From Bermanella marisrubri (lineage in GTDB: Bacteria; Pseudomonadota; Gammaproteobacteria; Pseudomonadales; Oceanobacteraceae): a stretch of 64,000 nt of DNA. Of the stretch, positions 7,169 to 47,164 are shown piece after piece (position 1 is the first letter of the stretch; each line of letters opens with the position of its first letter). A model generated the notes under the pieces. The model worked only from the letters and a program-made list of their open reading frames with translations. It was not told where the DNA came from and ran no database searches. The translations under genes and the position numbers were made by a program. Location of the stretch: NCBI RefSeq assembly GCF_012295615.1, contig NZ_CP051183.1, positions 687,001 through 751,000 on the forward strand. The letters are read 5' to 3'.

Positions 7169-7293
7169 AAATCGCCTGTTTAATGATTGCACACTGGAAA
7201 ATTTGTGCCATATTTAATCTGTTAGCTAGCGGTTCAGTCAACTTTTACGTTAGTTTTACTTTCCTTACTCTTTGAAACAGGAAAGGACCTCCC

Positions 7294-9981
7294 ATGTTTG
7301 AAGATGCATCTAATGCACTGTTTAACAGTAATTATATGCCCCATGGCATGTGCTATGCGTGGGAGCCTGGTATATTGTGGACGTCGGTTATCTCAGACTT
7401 AGTGATTGCGACGGCCTATTTCTCCATCCCTTTTGCCATCCTGTTCCTTGTTCAGAAGCGTAAAATTAACAAACACCTTCATTTATACTGGCTGTTTGCC
7501 GCTTTCATTTTTCTCTGCGGCCTGACGCATCTCTATGGCATTTATGTGGTTTGGGAGGGCAGTTATGGCCCGCAAAGCTTGCTCAAGGCATTAACTGCGA
7601 TTGTGAGTCTAGCAACAGCGGTTATGGTCTACCGCTATTTACCGATTGCTTTGACGATTCCCAGCAAAGATGAGTTGGATAGTGCGATGGTGCAGGCTGC
7701 TCAGAATAAGTTATTCAAGGATGTGATTGAGCAATCTCCCATTGGTCTAATGTTGGTAGATAAGCAATTTAAAATGACGGTGGTGAATCACCACTTAGCG
7801 AGTTTGTTCGGATATCGAGTGGAAGAGTTAGAAGGGAAACCTGTGAATCTTCTAGTGGATAATGCCTTTGCCGAAACTCATACAGCGTTGATGCAAAATT
7901 ATTCGAAAAAGCCTGAAAGCTCTCACAGTATGGCATATGGTAGGACGATCTATGGCTATTCCAAGGATAAGCGTCACATTCCTATTGAGATCAGCTTAAC
8001 ACCTCAAAAATACAATAACGAGTCTCACATTTTTGTGAGTGTATTTGATGTCAAAGAGAAAACGAAGAACAAAGAACTCGCTTATCAAGCGATGGCTCGA
8101 ACTCAAAGGATCGCGGAAGCAACCCACGATGGTCTGTGGGAATGGAATCTTGTTACCGATGAAGTTTGGATGTCAGATCGCCAGAAAGAAATGATCGGGT
8201 TGAATGCGGATCAAGGAGCCAGATTTGAAGATTGGTTCGAGCATGTGCACCCAGATTATCGAGATATCGTTTTATCACATATACGCGCCAATCAAGATGA
8301 AGGAAAAGAATTCCAAGTCGATTATTTGGGTAGAACGCAAATAGGTGGCTACCAATGGTTTAGAGCTAGAGGTGATTCGCTATTTAATAGTGACGGTAAA
8401 GCTATTTTGATGAGTGGAGCGCTAACCAATATCGATACGATTAAGCGTTTTGAGCTTAACGCAGTGAAACGTTCTAAAACTCTGGAAAAAGTACTCGATA
8501 AGACGATTTGTGGTGTCTACATCTTTAACCTGAAAGAACATAAAACAACCTATATAAATCATGAATATAGCTATTTAACTGGCTATCAATTAAGTCATCT
8601 TCAATTGATGGACTTAGAAGATAACGGTAATGGCTTGATTCATCCAGACGATTTAGAACGATTCACGACACATTTTAAAGATATTGTTTCCAACCCTGAC
8701 TATAGCAAGGTTTTATTGTATCGCTTCAAGCATGCTAATGGGAACTGGATTTGGTGCTTATCAAAAGATTCGATATTAAGTCGATACAGCAGCGGAAAAC
8801 CAAAAGAGTTGATGGGTACTTTCATCGATGTAACGGAGTTGAAAGAGTCAGAAGAGACTCAGAGACGCTTGCGCAAAGATTTTGAAAATACGTTTGATCA
8901 AGCAGCTGTTGGCATTTGCCATATTTCTTTAGATGGAAGATTTATTAAAGCAAATGAAAAGATATCTGAAATACTTGGGTACCCAAGTGAACAGCTACAC
9001 GCAATGAGATTTCAAGATATTACCCACCCTCTTGATTTAAACGATGACTTGCAACATCTCAATCAGTTGTTAAGTGGAGAAATAGACTTTTATGCGATTG
9101 AGAAACGCTATATCCATTCAAACCAGAGATATGTATGGGCGAGGCTTACAGTGTCTTTAGTGCGAGATGGACATAATGAACCAGAGTACTTTATTTCGGT
9201 AATTGAGGATATTAGTCATAGGAAGCAGTTAGAAGAGAGTCTAATTCGATTAAATAAAGATCTTAAGCGCTCAAATGATCAGCTTACTCGTTTTGCTTAC
9301 TCTGCGTCTCATGATATGCAAGAGCCGTTACGTAAAATTACTTCATTTTCATCTAGCCTCTATGAAAGACTATCTGCAGAGCAGTTAGATGATACGTCCC
9401 GATTCGAGTTAGATCGCTTGATCAGTGCATCAATGAGAATGCGCGATATGATTTCGAGATTATTAGAGCTATCTCGTAGCAGTAATATCGCTTTGAAACT
9501 AGAGGATGTATTGCTATCTGAAGTCCTTCAAGATGCTAAAGAACAGCTTTCAATGTTATTTAAAGATCACCCAGTCTCGTTTATTGTTAACTCTGATGGT
9601 GCATTATATTGTGATAAGCAGGTCATGAGTACTGTGCTTCAAAATTTAATTAAAAATTCTGTTAAATACCAGCATGAGAGCCGGCCATTAGAAATTGAGA
9701 TTAATTGTGAGCAGGAAGGTGGTTATAGCATTATCGAATTTTCTGATAATGGGATTGGTTTTGATAATAAGTATAAGAATAAAATCTTTGAACCATTTAA
9801 GCGTTTAGTCAACCACTCTGAGATTGAAGGTACTGGTATGGGGTTGGCGATTTGCAATCAATTGGTTCATATTCATGGAGGTCAGATGCGTGCTGAGGGT
9901 ATGGAGGGACAGGGGTCTGTTTTCTTTATCCAGTTGCCCATTAACGTTTTAGAAATTAATTTTGGGGAGCAGAATGGCTAA
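7294..9981 (+). CDS. Multi-PAS histidine kinase with ethylene-receptor-like membrane sensor domain
   Basis: An 895-residue kinase. Residues 30-130 form three membrane helices resembling the ethylene-binding domain of plant ETR1 and cyanobacterial SynEtr1. D35, Y42, I45, P46, I72, C75 and H79 align, all at a constant +10 offset, with ETR1 D25, Y32, I35, P36, I62, C65 and H69; C65 and H69 hold the Cu(I) cofactor. Four PAS domains follow (about 141-260, 272-390, 393-517, 527-645). The HisKA domain has H673 in SASHDMQEPL, of the phytochrome-kinase type, and the HATPase has N-x-x-KN, DNGIGF and GTGMGL boxes. ETR1's N-terminal disulfide cysteines are absent. There is no GAF or attached receiver domain. 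Two regulator genes follow directly. Ethylene binding is inferred from residues only. Confidence 0.9.
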   Translation: MFEDASNALFNSNYMPHGMCYAWEPGILWTSVISDLVIATAYFSIPFAILFLVQKRKINKHLHLYWLFAAFIFLCGLTHLYGIYVVWEGSYGPQSLLKALTAIVSLATAVMVYRYLPIALTIPSKDELDSAMVQAAQNKLFKDVIEQSPIGLMLVDKQFKMTVVNHHLASLFGYRVEELEGKPVNLLVDNAFAETHTALMQNYSKKPESSHSMAYGRTIYGYSKDKRHIPIEISLTPQKYNNESHIFVSVFDVKEKTKNKELAYQAMARTQRIAEATHDGLWEWNLVTDEVWMSDRQKEMIGLNADQGARFEDWFEHVHPDYRDIVLSHIRANQDEGKEFQVDYLGRTQIGGYQWFRARGDSLFNSDGKAILMSGALTNIDTIKRFELNAVKRSKTLEKVLDKTICGVYIFNLKEHKTTYINHEYSYLTGYQLSHLQLMDLEDNGNGLIHPDDLERFTTHFKDIVSNPDYSKVLLYRFKHANGNWIWCLSKDSILSRYSSGKPKELMGTFIDVTELKESEETQRRLRKDFENTFDQAAVGICHISLDGRFIKANEKISEILGYPSEQLHAMRFQDITHPLDLNDDLQHLNQLLSGEIDFYAIEKRYIHSNQRYVWARLTVSLVRDGHNEPEYFISVIEDISHRKQLEESLIRLNKDLKRSNDQLTRFAYSASHDMQEPLRKITSFSSSLYERLSAEQLDDTSRFELDRLISASMRMRDMISRLLELSRSSNIALKLEDVLLSEVLQDAKEQLSMLFKDHPVSFIVNSDGALYCDKQVMSTVLQNLIKNSVKYQHESRPLEIEINCEQEGGYSIIEFSDNGIGFDNKYKNKIFEPFKRLVNHSEIEGTGMGLAICNQLVHIHGGQMRAEGMEGQGSVFFIQLPINVLEINFGEQNG

Positions 9982-10414
9982 CAGATTTCCACATATAGTC
10001 ATGATTGATGATGACGAAGATGATCAATATTTTTTCAGGGAGCATTTTAAAAGTTGCGATGATCATCTTTGTTTTGAAGGCTTCATTGGTGGAGAAGCGT
10101 TCTTTGATTTCTTTGATAACCAAGAATTAGAAGAGGATCAATTACCGAATTTGATTCTTCTTGATCTAAACATTCCTAAAGATGATGGCATCGATATTCT
10201 TATGCGCTTGAAGAATAATGCAACGTTAAAGCTTATCCCAGTTTTAGTTTTGACAACGTCTTCAAGTCCCTTGGATATTGAAGATTGTTATAATTTGGGA
10301 GTTCATTCGTATTTTGTTAAACCCATGTCTTTGCAGGAAACAAAAGAGTTAGTTTCTGTTATTTATGAGTATTGGTTCAATCAAAACATTATATCAAGGT
10401 TGAAAACAGGTTAA
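9974..10414 (+). CDS. Stand-alone response regulator, Rcp1-like
   Basis: A 146-residue single receiver domain with no output domain. The acidic pocket is D12-D13-D14, the phosphoacceptor is D64 in LLDLNIP, and the conserved Lys lies in YFVKPMS. The family resembles Rcp1-type regulators that pair with phytochrome-like kinases, matching the HisKA type of the kinase upstream. Start chosen at ATG 9974, which has a GGGGAG ribosome-binding site and overlaps the kinase stop by eight bases, so the two are translationally coupled. A TTG at 9962 is a poorer alternative. Confidence 0.92.
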   Translation: MANRFPHIVMIDDDEDDQYFFREHFKSCDDHLCFEGFIGGEAFFDFFDNQELEEDQLPNLILLDLNIPKDDGIDILMRLKNNATLKLIPVLVLTTSSSPLDIEDCYNLGVHSYFVKPMSLQETKELVSVIYEYWFNQNIISRLKTG

Positions 10415-10419
10415 GTGAT

Positions 10420-11346
10420 ATGAGTGATGAATATCGTATATTAATGGTTGAAGATGATAGCGACGACTATTATCTCACCAAACAGGCTTTAGCCAAGGAT
10501 CACCATCGTCGCTATGATATTGATCGGGCTAAATCAATTAGAGCTGCATCGGATTATGTTTCTAATCGATATGATACGATTCTGTTAGATGTAGTGTTAC
10601 CCGACTCTGAAGGTGTTAATTCGATTTTAGAGATTCAAAATGCATTCCCTAACACTCCTATTATTGTGTTGACGGGTATGGGCAATGATGAACTTGGTCA
10701 AAGTGCAATTCAATTAGGAGTGGCTGATTATTTATCGAAATCAGACATGACACCAGGCTTACTATCCCGCTGTATTCGATTCTCGATCGAGCGTCACAAC
10801 TTGATCAATAAGTTACAGAATATGGCACTTATCGATCCTTTAACCTTATTAAGCAATCGTGCTGACTTTATGCAAAAGCTAGAGCACCACTTAGAATATA
10901 GCCTGCGTTATCAAACAAAACTGGCATTGTGTATGGTCGATCTAGACGGATTCAAGCAAGTCAATGATACACTTGGTCATCGCGCGGGTGATCAGGTTTT
11001 ACAGCAATTTTCTACCCGGCTTAAGCAACGCCTTAGAAAGTCCGATGTACTCGCACGTCTAGGCGGAGATGAATTCGTTATTCTAATGCTAGGTGTTGGA
11101 GATGAAGAATCGTCAATGCAAGCAGCTAAAGAAAAAATGCAAGCGGTGGCGGAGCCATTTTTAATTTATATGGACGGTCAGGTTCACGATATTCAACTGG
11201 GTATGAGTATCGGTATTTGCATCAGTGGAGGCACGATATCTACGCCAGATAAATTGCTACACTGTGCAGATCAAGCAATGTACCAAGTTAAGAAATCAGG
11301 CAAGAATAATATTGCATTGCATAAGTCGCCACCCGAATCGGCCTAA
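10420..11346 (+). CDS. Response regulator with GGDEF output, probable diguanylate cyclase
   Basis: A 308-residue protein: receiver domain at residues 5-120 (acidic pocket E11-D12-D13, phosphoacceptor D57 in LLDVVLP) followed by a GGDEF domain at about 140-300. The active-site motif GGDEF is intact at 215-219 and is preceded five residues earlier by an RxxD inhibitory site (RKSD), as in product-inhibited cyclases. It would make cyclic di-GMP when phosphorylated. It begins five bases after the preceding regulator, so kinase, receiver and cyclase look like one operon. The in-frame ATG or equivalent upstream lacks homology; ATG 10420 gives the usual receiver start. Confidence 0.93.
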   Translation: MSDEYRILMVEDDSDDYYLTKQALAKDHHRRYDIDRAKSIRAASDYVSNRYDTILLDVVLPDSEGVNSILEIQNAFPNTPIIVLTGMGNDELGQSAIQLGVADYLSKSDMTPGLLSRCIRFSIERHNLINKLQNMALIDPLTLLSNRADFMQKLEHHLEYSLRYQTKLALCMVDLDGFKQVNDTLGHRAGDQVLQQFSTRLKQRLRKSDVLARLGGDEFVILMLGVGDEESSMQAAKEKMQAVAEPFLIYMDGQVHDIQLGMSIGICISGGTISTPDKLLHCADQAMYQVKKSGKNNIALHKSPPESA

Positions 11347-11714
11347 AAAAGCACATCTTCATTACTATCACTAGCTGAAACTTCTGCCATGTTTTGCAAT
11401 TCATCATTAAACCTAAGCATAGTTTGAATGATGTTGATGCTGTGATTTTCCATACTCGATAAATGTTCGAATTTATCGCTATTTCGATTCTGTGTATTGG
11501 CTACTAATGCTTGATAAGCCGATTCGTGAATGGCTATTAATGAATGTTCCATTTTCTTATAGCTATTTAAGTGACTAAAAGTCGATTTGCCTAGTCCTTC
11601 ATAATACCACTTGCCCATTCGGCCGGCGGTGTGATCTCTAATGTTGTCAATATAGGACTCATCAGTTACGTTTTCATCAATGGACTCTAGGATTTTTGAT
11701 TTAAATGCGAGCAA
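11343..11714 (-). pseudogene. CZB (chemoreceptor zinc-binding) domain fragment, detached from its receptor
   Basis: About 120 residues matching the C-terminal CZB domain of soluble chemoreceptors, recognisable from the GRMGKWYYEG core and the H-x6-H helix after it. CZB domains normally bind zinc through His and Cys and are fused to the receptor signalling domain. Here the frame opens only at a TTG with no ribosome-binding site, one codon after an in-frame TAA. The Cys expected before RxGKW is Gly, and the N-terminal L-D-H histidine is missing. This looks like the broken tail of the receptor gene at 11741. Convergent with the cyclase gene, overlapping it by a few bases. Confidence 0.6.
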
Positions 11715-11740: not shown

Positions 11741-12499
11741 CTACTCATTAGTAGCCCGACTGATTATTAAGTTCATCTCTTGGCTAACTTGGGTTATATG
11801 TGAAACAGATTGATTAATGGTTTGTGTGGTTTCAGTTAGGGTGTTAGCGTTTTCTTTGATTAAGTCGATACCTCCACCCACTTGGCCAATATGATGATTG
11901 GTTTGATCAATAATATTGCCTATTTTATCCGTCGTTTGACTCGTTTGTTCAGCAAGATTGCGCACTTCATCGGCTACAACTGCAAATCCGCGACCCTGCT
12001 CACCAGCTCTTGCTGCTTCGATGGCAGCATTTAACGCAAGTAGATTGGTTTTTTCACTGATGGCTTTTATTTCATCGATAAAAGTATGAATAGAATCAGC
12101 GTCTTTACGCAAAGTCTCCATATGTTCAAATGTTTGATTAGACTGTTGGTTTATATTTTTCAGATTGCCACTAATACGCTGAAGGATGACAGAAATCTGA
12201 TCAAACGTGGCTGCATTGTCTTTTAAATTATTCTTTTCATCGGCAAGATGCTTTGCGTTACCGAGAACGAGATCATGTACATCATTGATGCGGTTAATGT
12301 TCTTGAATAGGATCGAATTAAGTTGAGAGTGTTCTTGCGCAATATCATTAATATGGTGTCTCAATTCATCCGCTGCGATGCGAGCTAGCTCAACATTCCC
12401 CAGTTTCTGTTTCGCATTTACAAGATCGCTTTCTAGCTCGGCAATACGACTAGCCAATGATGCGTATTTTTTTATATTAACGAAAGGGAATGCCGGCAT
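11741..12499 (-). CDS. Soluble methyl-accepting chemotaxis signalling protein, truncated
   Basis: A 252-residue cytoplasmic protein without membrane segments or a recognised sensor domain. An N-terminal coiled coil (about 10-50) leads to the highly conserved receptor hairpin tip with [19 protein letters not shown] and [12 protein letters not shown], which binds CheW and CheA. The frame ends at a TAG just where CZB-type receptors continue into their zinc-binding tail; shifting frame recovers SFIQVALL and then the CZB sequence at 11714. No clear ribosome-binding site precedes ATG 12499. It may still signal, but without its ligand domain; a decaying gene or a sequencing error are both possible. 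Confidence 0.75.
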
Positions 12500-27033: not shown

Positions 27034-29721
27034 TTATTTTAGTTTGCCCTTGAGTTCATAAAGTAGTTCAAGCGCTTGCCTTGGTGTCAGATCATCTGGG
27101 CTGATATCTTTAAGCGCTAATTCCACTTCACTGGGTTCAGGCGGTGCTGCGAACATGTCTCCCTGCCAGATGGCTTCTGCACTGTCGTTTGGCTGAGACG
27201 CTGAAGGTTGAGGTTCCGTGACTTTAGCCACTTGAGGTGTCTCAGAAATGGATTGCTCAATCGGGCTGGGTTCAATGTTGGTTTCTTCTAACAAAGCAAG
27301 CTTTTGTTTGGCCTGTTCCACGACTTCTAAAGGCACGCCCGCTAGCTTGGCTACTTGCAAGCCATAGCTTTGGCTGGCGGGGCCTTCTTCCACATGGTGG
27401 AGAAATACAATATGGTCATTATGTTCGGTAGCGGTTAAATGCACGTTGGCAACATTGTCACTGCTCTCCACCAACTGCGTCATTTCAAAATAGTGGGTCG
27501 CGAATAGGGTATAGGCTTGAGTGTGTTTTGAGAGATATTCAGCGCTGGCCCAAGCTAAAGATAAACCATCAAACGTACTGGTACCGCGACCCACTTCATC
27601 CATCAAGACCAAGCTTTGCGCAGTAGCGTGATGGAGAATGTTAGCGGTTTCTGTCATTTCTACCATAAAGGTTGAACGGCCACCGGCGACGTCATCGCTT
27701 GAGCCCATACGGGTAAAAATGCGATCTAGAAGACCAATCGTCGCGCTATCTGCCGGAACATAACTACCAATGTGGGCGAGCAACGCAATGTGTGCTGCTT
27801 GACGCATATAGGTCGACTTACCACCCATGTTTGGGCCGGTAATCACGAGCATTTTACGGTTTTGATCAAAGCGCACATCGTTTGCCACAAATGGGTCTTC
27901 GATGACGGCTTCTACCACGGGGTGGCGGCCCTGTTGAATATCAATGCCAGCATTTTCGGTGAGCTCAGGGCGAACATAGCGCTGGGTGACGGCTCGTTCT
28001 GCTAAATTCGACAATACATCCAGTTCGCTGATGGCGGCCGCTGTATCTTGCAGAGCCGCTAATTGATCCGCTAAGGATTCAATGAGTTCTTCATAAAGGG
28101 CTTTTTCTCGAGAAAGCGCGCGGCTTTTGCTGGAAAGCGCTTTGTCTTCAAACTCTTTAAGTTCAGGTGTGATAAAACGCTCCGCATTTTTCAATGTCTG
28201 TCGACGAATATACTCGGTTGGCGCCTCACCCGCTTGAGCTTTGCTGATTTCAATGTAATAACCGTGCACTCGGTTGTAGCCTACTTTTAAGGTGCTAATA
28301 CCGGTCTTTTCACGTTCACGGGTTTCAATGTCGATTAGGAACTGGCCGGCGTTCTCACTGATGCCGCGCAGCTCATCTAATTCTTCGTCAAACCCCTCGG
28401 CAATCACACCACCGTCACGAATCACCACAGGTGGGTTTTCTACAACCGCATTGGTTAGGGTTTCAACTGTCTCTGGGTAGGTACTAATGCGTTGACCCAG
28501 AGCCGCAATGGGCGCTGCATCGACATCTGATATGGCGTTTTGCAATTGTGGTAAAACGGCTAAAGCATCTCGTAAGCGCGCCAGATCTCGAGGGCGGGCG
28601 CTGCGCAATGCCACTCGGCTGAGAATCCGCTCGATATCACCGATTTGTTTGAGCACATTGTGGATATCTTCATAACCATGGGTTTCGATCATGGCGCCAA
28701 TAGCATGTTGTCGCTCTTTCAACACGGATTGTTGACGTAAGGGTCGATTCAGCCAGCGACGCAATAGTCGACTGCCCATGGCCGTCGCGGTACGATCTAA
28801 TACCCAGGCCAAGGTGAAATCAGTATCACCGTTTAAATTGATATCAATTTCGAGATTTTTGCGGGTAGCCGCATCCATGACGATGGCATCGTCCGCTTGC
28901 TCTAGAAGGAGAGTGCGAATGTGGGGCAAGTTGGTGCGCTGAGTTTCTTTAGCGTAATGAATCAAACTACCTGCAGCGCCAATGGCTTGCTTCAAATGCT
29001 GACAACCAAAGCCATGCAAGTCTTTGGTTTGGAATTGTTCGGTCAGCAGGCGAAAGCCAGTCTCGTATTCAAATTCCCAAGGCGGCAAACTCTGAGCCCC
29101 TTTACGCTCGACTATTTCGTTACTGTGTTGTTGATCTTCACTGTAGAGCAGCTCAGCCGGGCGCAGACGCTCTAGTTCACCATGCAATGCTTCTTCTGAA
29201 TGAACTTCCATCACACTGAAGCGGCCGCTGCTGATATCCAGTGTTGCAATGCCATGGGTCTGTTTTTGTGTTCGGCCATCAATGTGGCTATTCACCGCTA
29301 CCAATAAATTGTCTCGACGCTCATCCAAAAAGCTTTCATCTGTCAGGGTACCCGGTGTAATCACCCTCACGACTTTGCGTTCAACTGGCCCCTTGCTGGT
29401 GGCTGGGTCGCCAATTTGCTCGGCAATGGCCACAGATTCACCCATTTTCACCAGTTTGGCGATATAGCCTTCCGCTGCATGGTAAGGGATACCTGCCATG
29501 GGGATCGGCGCGCCACCGCTTTTGCCTCTCGCGGTTAGCGTAATGTCCAATAAGCGCGCGCTTTTCTTGGCATCGTCATAAAACAGCTCATAGAAATCAC
29601 CCATGCGATAAAACACCAGCTGCTGCGGGTGCTCCGCTTTAATGCGCAAATATTGCTGCATCATAGGTGTGTGTTCAGATGCGTCTTTTGTGGCTTTTTT
29701 CGGGGCAGTTTCAACGGCCAT
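27034..29721 (-). CDS. mutS: DNA mismatch repair protein MutS
   Basis: MutS recognises mismatches and starts methyl-directed repair. The mismatch-probing F-x-E motif is F43/E45 in GDFYELF. The ATPase domain has Walker [26 protein letters not shown] and ATHYFEMT. At 895 residues it is slightly longer than the E. coli protein; the extra length is a low-complexity Ser/Pro/Gln-rich linker at about 815-860 before the C-terminal dimerisation helix. It is followed by fdxA, the Pseudomonas order. Confidence 0.98.
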
Positions 29722-31289: not shown

Positions 31290-32264
31290 ATGGTCGCTCT
31301 CGAGGTCAGGCATCGCCTTAGCCATATGACAGCCAAGAAAATCAGCCCGATAACCCAAGGGGTATCGGGTGTCGATCCCAAATACAAAGAGTCATTTGAT
31401 AAAGTGGCGGTGGGGTTGTGTCATGTGGATTTAAACGGTCGTTTTATACACGTTAACGATTTTCTCCTAGATTTCCTCGGTTATGAAGAGGATGAACTCC
31501 TCTCCATAACGTTCTCGCAAATATCTCGTGAAGAAGACATCCCAGAAAGTTTAGCGTGGATTAAAAAATCCCTATCCGGTGAAACTCAAAGTAATTTCTC
31601 GAAGGTTAAACAATATCTCCACAAAGACGGTCATTGGGTGTGGGCAAAGCTTTCAACGACCTTAATTCGAGATGAGCATGGCGTGCCCTCGTATTTTGTT
31701 TCTTCTATACAGGACGTTTCTGATCTTAAAAATGCAGAGACAGCGTTAGATTTTTCTTTGCAGCAACTTAACGAGGCTTACGCCGAGTTGGAGCAAATGT
31801 CACGAAAAGATGGCCTAACAGGGGCGTTAAATATTCGTGCATTTAAAGAGGAATTGTTGGATGCCATGGAGCGCTATCATCGTTCCGGTCAAAATGTAAC
31901 CTTGGTATTTATTGATCTAGACGATTTTAAACAGGTTAATGATCAATATGGTCACATTGTCGGAGATGAGGTGCTCACGACTTTTGCGAAAACGTTATTG
32001 AATCAATCCCGTCGTTGCGACGCTGTAGCTCGCTATGGTGGTGACGAGTTTGCGATGCTATTAGATGATACTACGGAGCAAGAGGCGTTGGATTTTTGTA
32101 AGCGGCTAGGCTCCGAAATTGAGTTTGAGACCGGTAACGGAAAAACCAAAAGTATGTCGTTTTCTTTTGGTATGTCTCAATTAAAAAAGAATCATCGTAC
32201 CGTAGAGGATTGGTTTGCAGAGGCCGATCAGCATATGTATCGTGATAAAGAATCCTCTAAATAA
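31290..32264 (+). CDS. PAS-GGDEF protein, probable diguanylate cyclase
   Basis: A 324-residue cytoplasmic protein: PAS domain at about 33-150, coiled linker, GGDEF domain at about 165-320. The active site GGDEF is intact and an RxxD inhibitory site (RRCD) lies five residues before it, so it should make cyclic di-GMP with product inhibition. The PAS domain closely resembles the fourth PAS domain of the ethylene-receptor-like kinase (FD-x-x-AVG-x-CH and DGRF-like segments). ATG 31326 is an alternative start. Confidence 0.9.
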   Translation: MVALEVRHRLSHMTAKKISPITQGVSGVDPKYKESFDKVAVGLCHVDLNGRFIHVNDFLLDFLGYEEDELLSITFSQISREEDIPESLAWIKKSLSGETQSNFSKVKQYLHKDGHWVWAKLSTTLIRDEHGVPSYFVSSIQDVSDLKNAETALDFSLQQLNEAYAELEQMSRKDGLTGALNIRAFKEELLDAMERYHRSGQNVTLVFIDLDDFKQVNDQYGHIVGDEVLTTFAKTLLNQSRRCDAVARYGGDEFAMLLDDTTEQEALDFCKRLGSEIEFETGNGKTKSMSFSFGMSQLKKNHRTVEDWFAEADQHMYRDKESSK

Positions 32265-45279: not shown

Positions 45280-46257
45280 TTAGCCTTTAAACGAAAGTAA
45301 ACGCAAAGCGGTTTGCTGTTGTTGTTTGATTTGTTTCAGTGTGCGTTCTAAGAAATTCTCGGAAGTTTCGTTAGCGCCGAGGGTGGCCATACCGGTATTA
45401 ATTTGCAATTCCCCAATTTCACCCCACTGTTTTGTTTTTAATGTGTGGTTTAAGCGTTCACGCAGTACCACAGCGCCCTCATTAGGGCAGTTGGGCAATA
45501 ATAAATAAAAGCTACCCTTGCCGTCATGAAAAATTTCATCTCCTGTTCTAAGCAACTCCATAAGAACATGATTGAATTGCTTTAAGAGTTGTTCGCTTTG
45601 ATGGCGCCCGTGTATTTCTAAAATCTGATGATAATCATCAATGGTTAGTGCAATCAGTGAAAGGGTCCGATGAGTGAAGTGGCTACGGGCTATTTCAATA
45701 TCTAATTTCTTTCTAAGCTGACGTATATTAAATGCACCTGATAGATGGTCCGTTACTGCAAGCTCCAAGAGTTTTTTTTGTCGATTGGTATTAAGGTAGG
45801 CATAACACAAAGAGCATAAGCCTATGAGTAAGTAGACAGAGATCAAGCTTAACAGCTGTTGCAGTGTAAATTGACCGTAAAGTTGGCTCACACTGCTGAT
45901 CAATACTGCGCTGTTCAAAGCGAATGCTCTTGGCATGGGTAATACAAAGTAGCTAATGATTGGAAAAGTAAATAGCCAATAAAGTGTGAGTTCGGCTTCA
46001 TAGTGAAGTTGATATTGAGTGACAATGGCGATACATGCGAGAGCCATCAGATTAATCATATCGCTAATCTTAGAATTTGTGCTGAGGTAGATGAAAACCG
46101 CAGCAAATCCATAAGCCGTTGCTGCCGATAGATGTATTAGTACGATGTGGTACATCCCTGACCAGTAATGGTTCATGGTTAGCAATGCATTCGCTATGGC
46201 TAATAAAGCGTAAAGTAAGCTAAGTGCAGGCGTGCGTGAGAGGCCAAGGTTAAACAT
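45280..46257 (-). CDS. Membrane protein with degenerate GGDEF domain (second of a pair)
   Basis: A 325-residue protein with about six N-terminal membrane helices (residues 12-155) and a C-terminal GGDEF-fold domain. The catalytic GGDEF motif is replaced by GKGSF in the segment HDGKGSFYLLLP, and the D in the substrate site differs, so it should not make cyclic di-GMP but could bind a nucleotide or act as a partner. ATG 46257 has an AGGAG ribosome-binding site and overlaps the upstream gene by eight bases, so the two are coupled. It is related in plan to its neighbour. Confidence 0.85.
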   Translation of the reverse strand: MFNLGLSRTPALSLLYALLAIANALLTMNHYWSGMYHIVLIHLSAATAYGFAAVFIYLSTNSKISDMINLMALACIAIVTQYQLHYEAELTLYWLFTFPIISYFVLPMPRAFALNSAVLISSVSQLYGQFTLQQLLSLISVYLLIGLCSLCYAYLNTNRQKKLLELAVTDHLSGAFNIRQLRKKLDIEIARSHFTHRTLSLIALTIDDYHQILEIHGRHQSEQLLKQFNHVLMELLRTGDEIFHDGKGSFYLLLPNCPNEGAVVLRERLNHTLKTKQWGEIGELQINTGMATLGANETSENFLERTLKQIKQQQQTALRLLSFKG

Positions 46258-47164
46258 GACGCAACTCCTGATACGAGTGCTCAATGAGCGAATTCGCATC
46301 ATCATCAACATTCAAGCTCGCGTATCCCACCATGATATCTTTGCGCATGACTTCCGGCATCTCATCTACAATTTTTTTAGCGGTGATTAGGGCATCTTGC
46401 GTGGTGGTGTGGGGCAGGATTATGGCAAAGCGGTGGTCTTGTAATCGAAAATACAAATCAAATGGTCGCAATTGACTGCTAATGGCTTCGGCACATTTAA
46501 TATAGAGGTCAAAATGTTTGTCTTTACTACCTTGCCGCAACGCTTGATCTAAGTCCATCATCATCAACAATAGCCCTGTGCCTTCTCTTTCTGCTCGAAC
46601 AATTTCTTTTTGTAAATCTCCGTATAAACGACTCGAGAGCAAAGCCCCGGTTTCTTCATCTTTTGAGATCAGCGGGGCGAGAAGGCTCTGCGTGCGATGT
46701 TTCACGCTGGCTAAAAATAGCGACACCGTAGCGATTGCCGCAAAGCTATAAAAGTATTGTGCCTGCATGAATGTCGGGCTGTATTCGAGTAACAAATAAA
46801 TCACCAATGGTATTAGCAGTAAAGTCATGTAAACGGCAATGCGAAGGGGTAATAGGAAAAAGCTCGCGATAGGGACAAAGAACAACCAGTAGAATTGCTG
46901 GTAATTGACGACAGCGATAATCGAGAAAACAATTAATAGAATAATAAACGTCCATTCTGCAAAGACGGTGATATTCGACCATGAGGAAGTAAGAGTTAGG
47001 GCCGCACTGGCATAGAGGATCATCGCTAATGCCAATAGCCAAGGGACAAGAACATGACCTTGCTGTAGATATGCAAGATAGCAGTGAACCAATAATAGGC
47101 TTCCGGCCATGATAGCGAAGAGTCTTTTTGCTTGATTAGCCAGTTTTAAATGATGATCTCGCAT
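46250..47164 (-). CDS. Membrane protein with degenerate GGDEF domain (first of a pair)
   Basis: A 304-residue protein with five or six membrane helices and a C-terminal GGDEF-fold domain (about 160-300). The active motif is replaced by QDHRF in FRLQDHRFAIILP, and the Mg-binding DLD is only partly kept (MMDLDQ). Same architecture as the following gene, so the pair probably arose by duplication or forms a heterodimer. Not expected to be a cyclase. Confidence 0.85.
   Translation of the reverse strand: MRDHHLKLANQAKRLFAIMAGSLLLVHCYLAYLQQGHVLVPWLLALAMILYASAALTLTSSWSNITVFAEWTFIILLIVFSIIAVVNYQQFYWLFFVPIASFFLLPLRIAVYMTLLLIPLVIYLLLEYSPTFMQAQYFYSFAAIATVSLFLASVKHRTQSLLAPLISKDEETGALLSSRLYGDLQKEIVRAEREGTGLLLMMMDLDQALRQGSKDKHFDLYIKCAEAISSQLRPFDLYFRLQDHRFAIILPHTTTQDALITAKKIVDEMPEVMRKDIMVGYASLNVDDDANSLIEHSYQELRHV

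Follow-up and report, generated by a model that had tools for sequence, protein, structure and literature searches.

The window, a stretch of 64,000 nucleotides of the Bermanella marisrubri genome, holds on its plus strand an open reading frame of 895 amino acids (ATG at 7294, TAA at 9979-9981) whose translation is a sensor histidine kinase, followed by genes for a small response regulator and a REC-GGDEF protein. Domain make-up, conserved residues, operon layout and catalytic motifs were read directly from the sequence. The features of the locus are the following.

7193-11342, plus strand: segment carrying the operon; the corresponding site of G003 and G006, two genomes of this genus, lacks it (site comparison)
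7294-9981, plus strand: sensor histidine kinase of 895 aa with an ethylene-binding domain (EBD), four PAS domains, HisKA and HATPase (ORF translation, Pfam)
7339-7353, plus strand: N-terminal PHGMC motif (aa 16-20; H17, C20), before helix 1 (alignment of bacterial EBDs)
7372-7656, plus strand: ETR1_N ethylene-binding domain, aa 27-121, with model helices at aa 25-56, 62-88 and 91-120 (Pfam PF25487, AlphaFold2, hydropathy)
7396-7530, plus strand: the seven ETR1 ligand-site residues D35, Y42, I45, P46, I72, C75 (7516-7518) and H79 (7528-7530) (alignment)
7705-8079, plus strand: PAS1 (aa 138-262), a FixL/DosP-like candidate heme PAS, with H196 at 7879-7881 and R217 at 7942-7944 (model, profile)
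8125-9228, plus strand: PAS2, PAS3 and PAS4 (about aa 278-396, 397-517 and 529-645; edges approximate)
9283-9942, plus strand: HisKA, with the phospho-accepting H673 at 9310-9312, and HATPase_c (Pfam, motif check)
9974-10414, plus strand: Rcp1/RcpB-type single-domain response regulator of 146 aa (ATG at 9974, alternative TTG start at 9962)
10420-11346, plus strand: REC-GGDEF diguanylate cyclase of 308 aa, starting 5 bases past the response-regulator stop (Pfam, motif check)

The N-terminal membrane domain matches the ETR1_N profile PF25487 at aa 27-121 with E=2.3e-28 and 98.7 bits against a curated cut-off of 27, a score that rules out a chance match; the same profile found nothing in the control genomes (0/14). 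The sequence-only reading had claimed that the residues needed for ligand binding in ETR1 (D25, Y32, I35, P36, I62, C65 and H69) are all kept here, and the alignment bears this out, 7/7 at a constant offset of +10 within an ungapped stretch, so that C75 and H79 fall on the ETR1 copper site in the sequence version of a superposition. The ETR1 sequence in this alignment was verified at these seven residues only. AlphaFold2, run with 56 homologues, predicted three long membrane helices (pLDDT 93.8), in agreement with hydropathy. Sequence and fold searches of the PDB gave nothing meaningful and detected no relative of the ethylene-receptor membrane domain. The sensor domain is 40.6% identical over 128 aa to that of the Azospirillum brasilense Sp7 receptor AzoEtr1 (L065), whose first 130 residues bind ethylene in yeast; A. 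brasilense with the receptor gene broken loses ethylene binding (PMC11819568). By sequence the membrane domain is a true member of the bacterial ethylene-binding domains, predicted to bind Cu(I) and ethylene.

All seven ligand residues are exactly kept in 44 of 64 aligned bacterial domains, and the PHGxC motif is conserved nearly as well as these residues. The motif and the C75/H79 pair occur together in 54 domains, the ligands only in 3, the motif only in 1 and neither in 5 (p=4.6e-5; p=1.2e-4 for their co-loss after near-copies of one family were removed), p values that serve as a guide only, the divergent rows having common ancestry and long branches. The cyanobacterial receptors have a single cysteine in the PHGxC region, which may link the dimer (PMC6682694). 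Our own suggestion is that the motif may take part in copper loading. The co-loss of H17 and C20 with C75/H79, and the Cu(I) site that the conserved residues make, would also suit a domain that senses periplasmic Cu(I) itself, not ethylene. We regard this as very unlikely, in that ETR1, SynEtr1 and AzoEtr1 carry the same seven residues and bind ethylene (PMC11819568) and the neighbourhood of the operon showed no gene for copper resistance. A Cu-ATPase in the genome was set aside as support because it does not discriminate: 13 of the 14 control genomes have one that passes the cut-off too.

Two relatives lack the copper cysteine. In the EBD kinase at L048:4317-6371 (minus strand) C75 is replaced by W, in that at L061:4742-7492 (plus strand) by A, and both retain the operon of response regulator and REC-GGDEF genes. 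Judged from these residues, they represent a predicted natural loss of the ethylene site. The presence of the operon next to receptors without the cysteine indicates that the cassette can work without ethylene, and the two variants offer ready-made natural controls.

C-terminal to the membrane domain, Pfam and delineation of the PAS units confirmed the earlier description of four PAS domains (boundaries about as listed above) and no GAF; a Pfam search of the 895-aa protein found no GAF domain, which in a plant-type receptor follows the membrane domain. H673 is present and the N, G1 and G2 boxes of the HATPase are all intact, motifs by which the protein is predicted to be a histidine kinase fit to phosphorylate a regulator. 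Together, the PF25487 match, the seven ligand residues and the HisKA/HATPase module support the claim that an ethylene-receptor-type sensor is joined to a histidine kinase. The phytochrome-type label that had also been given to the kinase agrees with the regulator next to it, which among solved structures is closest to RcpB and Rcp1, response regulators of phytochromes. In other genomes the kinase domain finds its best matches within EBD kinases, which suggests that sensor and kinase have travelled together. A scan of the genome collection with the full-length protein gave solely PAS/kinase relatives. An ORF of the same length at 27034-29721 is MutS by Pfam, unrelated to the kinase.

The ATG of the response-regulator gene lies inside the 3' end of the kinase gene, giving an 8-base overlap. 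Two Pfam matches (E=1.2e-44 and 8.5e-16) cover the REC and GGDEF domains of the cyclase, its GGDEF motif and its RKSD (RxxD) I-site are intact, and its best solved relatives are the DgcR-type chains 6zxm/6zxc; by these motifs, 10420-11346 encodes a predicted response-regulator diguanylate cyclase of the DgcR/PleD type. A promoter scan did no better than shuffles, and predicted terminators exceeded shuffles but were scattered. The order kinase, response regulator, REC-GGDEF is also found at L046 (same genus), L048, L050, L054 and L061, and a version with a longer cyclase at L087-L090, L092 and L095 (REC-GGDEF-EAL by Pfam for L087 only). Seven relatives have ETR1_N fused straight to GGDEF (L052, L056, L057, L064, L072, L075 and L091), those at L072 and L075 being EBD-PAS-GGDEF-EAL proteins; an earlier description of such fusions was not found in the literature searched. 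Elsewhere in the window GGDEF proteins are encoded at 31290-32264 (plus strand), 45280-46311 (minus strand) and 46250-47164 (minus strand), and the two on the minus strand overlap neighbours.

As a control for the cassette we took, from the genomes that carry the EBD kinases, 20 kinases of the same class that lack an EBD. A REC-GGDEF neighbour is present at four of them (L101, L104, L109 and L115) and at 12 of the 24 EBD kinases that are not hybrids (p=0.06); when the controls are limited to the roughly 11 that look non-hybrid by eye, p=0.49. With 4/20 controls positive and p=0.06, enrichment of the cassette was rejected as proof of an ethylene-specific output; the cassette belongs to the kinase class. 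The genome of the window (G000:C1) has a second kinase/response regulator/REC-GGDEF cassette near 2.92 Mb, at L115:3184-7825 (minus strand), and Pfam recognised no input domain ahead of its kinase. Occurrence of the cassette beside non-EBD kinases in these genomes, L115 included, is what would be expected if the EBD kinase acted on targets outside its operon and the neighbouring REC-GGDEF protein served another kinase. The gene overlap and the gap of 5 bases point, however, to transcription as one unit with matched expression, and several families show this order with an EBD kinase; we hold such outside targets to be quite unlikely. The cassette probably indicates the target of this kinase, not a preference of ethylene for c-di-GMP.

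PAS1 was modelled with a pLDDT of 90.9, and a Foldseek search of the PDB placed FixL, DosP, EcDOS and FG214 at all of ranks 1-28. A PAS1 profile gave heme PAS domains as its top 14 matches (E 2e-30 to 1.5e-19; next match 5e-9), a result that may lean that way, the profile having been built from PAS1-selected relatives; single-sequence phmmer of PAS1 against the PDB found no match at 1e-3. H196 and R217 align with FixL H200, the proximal heme ligand, and R220, the distal arginine, and both are kept in L046, L054 and L061 and not in L055. Members of this PAS subfamily often have a histidine at the place of H196, which by itself does not prove heme. The model and the alignments suggest that PAS1 may be a second, heme-based gas sensor, making the protein a putative dual-gas receptor. 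That heme PAS domains are its nearest neighbours in the fold and profile searches, taken with the kept operon and lost copper ligands of L048 and L061, would also fit a scheme in which oxygen, NO or CO sensing by PAS1 is the main input and the membrane domain is mostly an anchor with a little-used ethylene site. An anchor would have no use for the seven ligand residues, all present in this protein and in most relatives, and PAS1 is also missing from L048; we consider this scheme unlikely.

In the window the operon sits between the genes for a Rieske protein and an MCP-CZB protein. The corresponding sites in G003 (L121) and G006 (L122) run der, globin, Rieske, MCP-CZB, smr with the operon absent, one other gene separating Rieske from MCP-CZB in L122, and neither genome has a PF25487 match. 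G005, also of this genus, has its operon at another place, about 475 kb along the contig from its globin gene. GC content is 0.396 for the kinase gene and 0.331 for the response-regulator gene; 15 other genes in the window have 0.453 +/- 0.027. Gain by transfer and loss in relatives are both possible histories; the AT-rich make-up and the patchy distribution lead us to lean to gain. The MCP signalling and CZB domains of the window lie in two ORFs in different frames, 11343-11714 and 11741-12499 on the minus strand, and correspond to a single ORF of 389-390 aa in L121 and L122, so that frame changes seem to have disrupted the gene, unless the sequence has errors at that point. The empty site, the two genes 3' of the kinase gene and the FixL-like PAS1 had all gone unmentioned in the sequence-only reading.

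Of 391 genomes of the window's order, 46 have an ETR1_N protein over the curated cut-off; in a sample of 369 genomes from the whole class the number is 13. Within the genus, 3 of 9 genomes have a match (G000, which is the window's own, G004 and G005), and none was found among the 25 other genomes of the family that were searched. The trait is thus patchy yet not rare, and the view that such sensing is little described in these bacteria was overstated, given these counts and the bacterial receptors already published from Synechocystis and Azospirillum (PMC11819568, PMC6682694). A mobilizable plasmid of Blastomonas sp. RAC04, whose recorded source is an algal phycosphere, carries one EBD kinase, L068:2092-3255 (plus strand).

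The reading we favour, and hold to be reasonably probable, is that of a copper-dependent bacterial-type ethylene receptor controlling c-di-GMP. The three-helix membrane domain would hold Cu(I) through C75 and H79, and the copper would bind ethylene; the signal would run through the four PAS domains to the histidine kinase, which would phosphorylate the Rcp1-type regulator and the REC-GGDEF cyclase from its own operon. PAS1 could provide a second input, heme-based oxygen, NO or CO. Phosphorylation by the cognate kinase activates REC-GGDEF cyclases (PMC8041772), ethylene is thought to inhibit the kinase activity of bacterial receptors, and in A. brasilense ethylene reduces c-di-GMP and biofilm (PMC11819568). 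By analogy with SynEtr1 and AzoEtr1, ethylene would be expected to lower kinase activity and hence c-di-GMP, favouring motility over attachment. The sign of this presumed response is uncertain because ethylene raises biofilm in Synechocystis. A more far-reaching version appears to us possible but doubtful: that one kinase sets c-di-GMP from two inputs, ethylene sensed at the Cu(I) site in the membrane and oxygen (or NO/CO) sensed by a heme PAS of FixL type, that ethylene is thereby a gated attachment signal in gammaproteobacteria, and that PHGxC belongs to the copper site or to the path by which it is loaded.

The closest known system is AzoEtr1/AzoRR-Etr1 of A. brasilense Sp7 (PMC11819568), in which ETR1_N with the seven residues is likewise followed by PAS and histidine kinase domains and a small regulator gene overlaps the kinase gene. 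AzoEtr1 differs in its 525 aa, its one PAS and its alphaproteobacterial host, and no REC-GGDEF gene was found in the stretch around L065. SynEtr1 (slr1212) of Synechocystis PCC 6803 likewise joins an ethylene-receptor kinase to a second sensory module and has regulators next to it (PMC11819568, PMC6682694), but that module is a cyanobacteriochrome photosensor and the output runs through slr1213 to an sRNA, where here there are four PAS domains and REC-GGDEF. GeiEtr2 of the cyanobacterium Geitlerinema PCC 7105 shares an ethylene-binding domain, PAS and a diguanylate cyclase gene grouped with it; it has other further domains, and the cyclase linkage is only noted in its source (PMC6682694). Plant ETR1 has the seven ligand residues and a three-helix membrane domain but GAF instead of PAS, lacks the bacterial PHGxC and signals to CTR1 rather than by phosphotransfer. 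FixL and DosP resemble PAS1 in fold and in the proximal His and distal Arg positions, whereas identity to PAS1, a candidate heme domain, is about 17-20%.

Ethylene sensors are thus known in bacteria, and what is new here is the combination with an operon-encoded cyclase and a possible second gas sensor. The earlier suggestion of a signal derived from phytoplankton draws no support from the sequence; phytoplankton is one possible source of the ethylene, and sunlight photochemistry of dissolved organics, which makes ethylene in water (PMC6682694), is another. Operons of EBD kinases with response-regulator cyclases, and the EBD-GGDEF fusions, offer a short, testable route from receptor to behaviour, cyclic-di-GMP being the attach-or-swim signal made by the neighbouring enzyme. 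A heme PAS in the same protein, if true, would make this a receptor for two gases.
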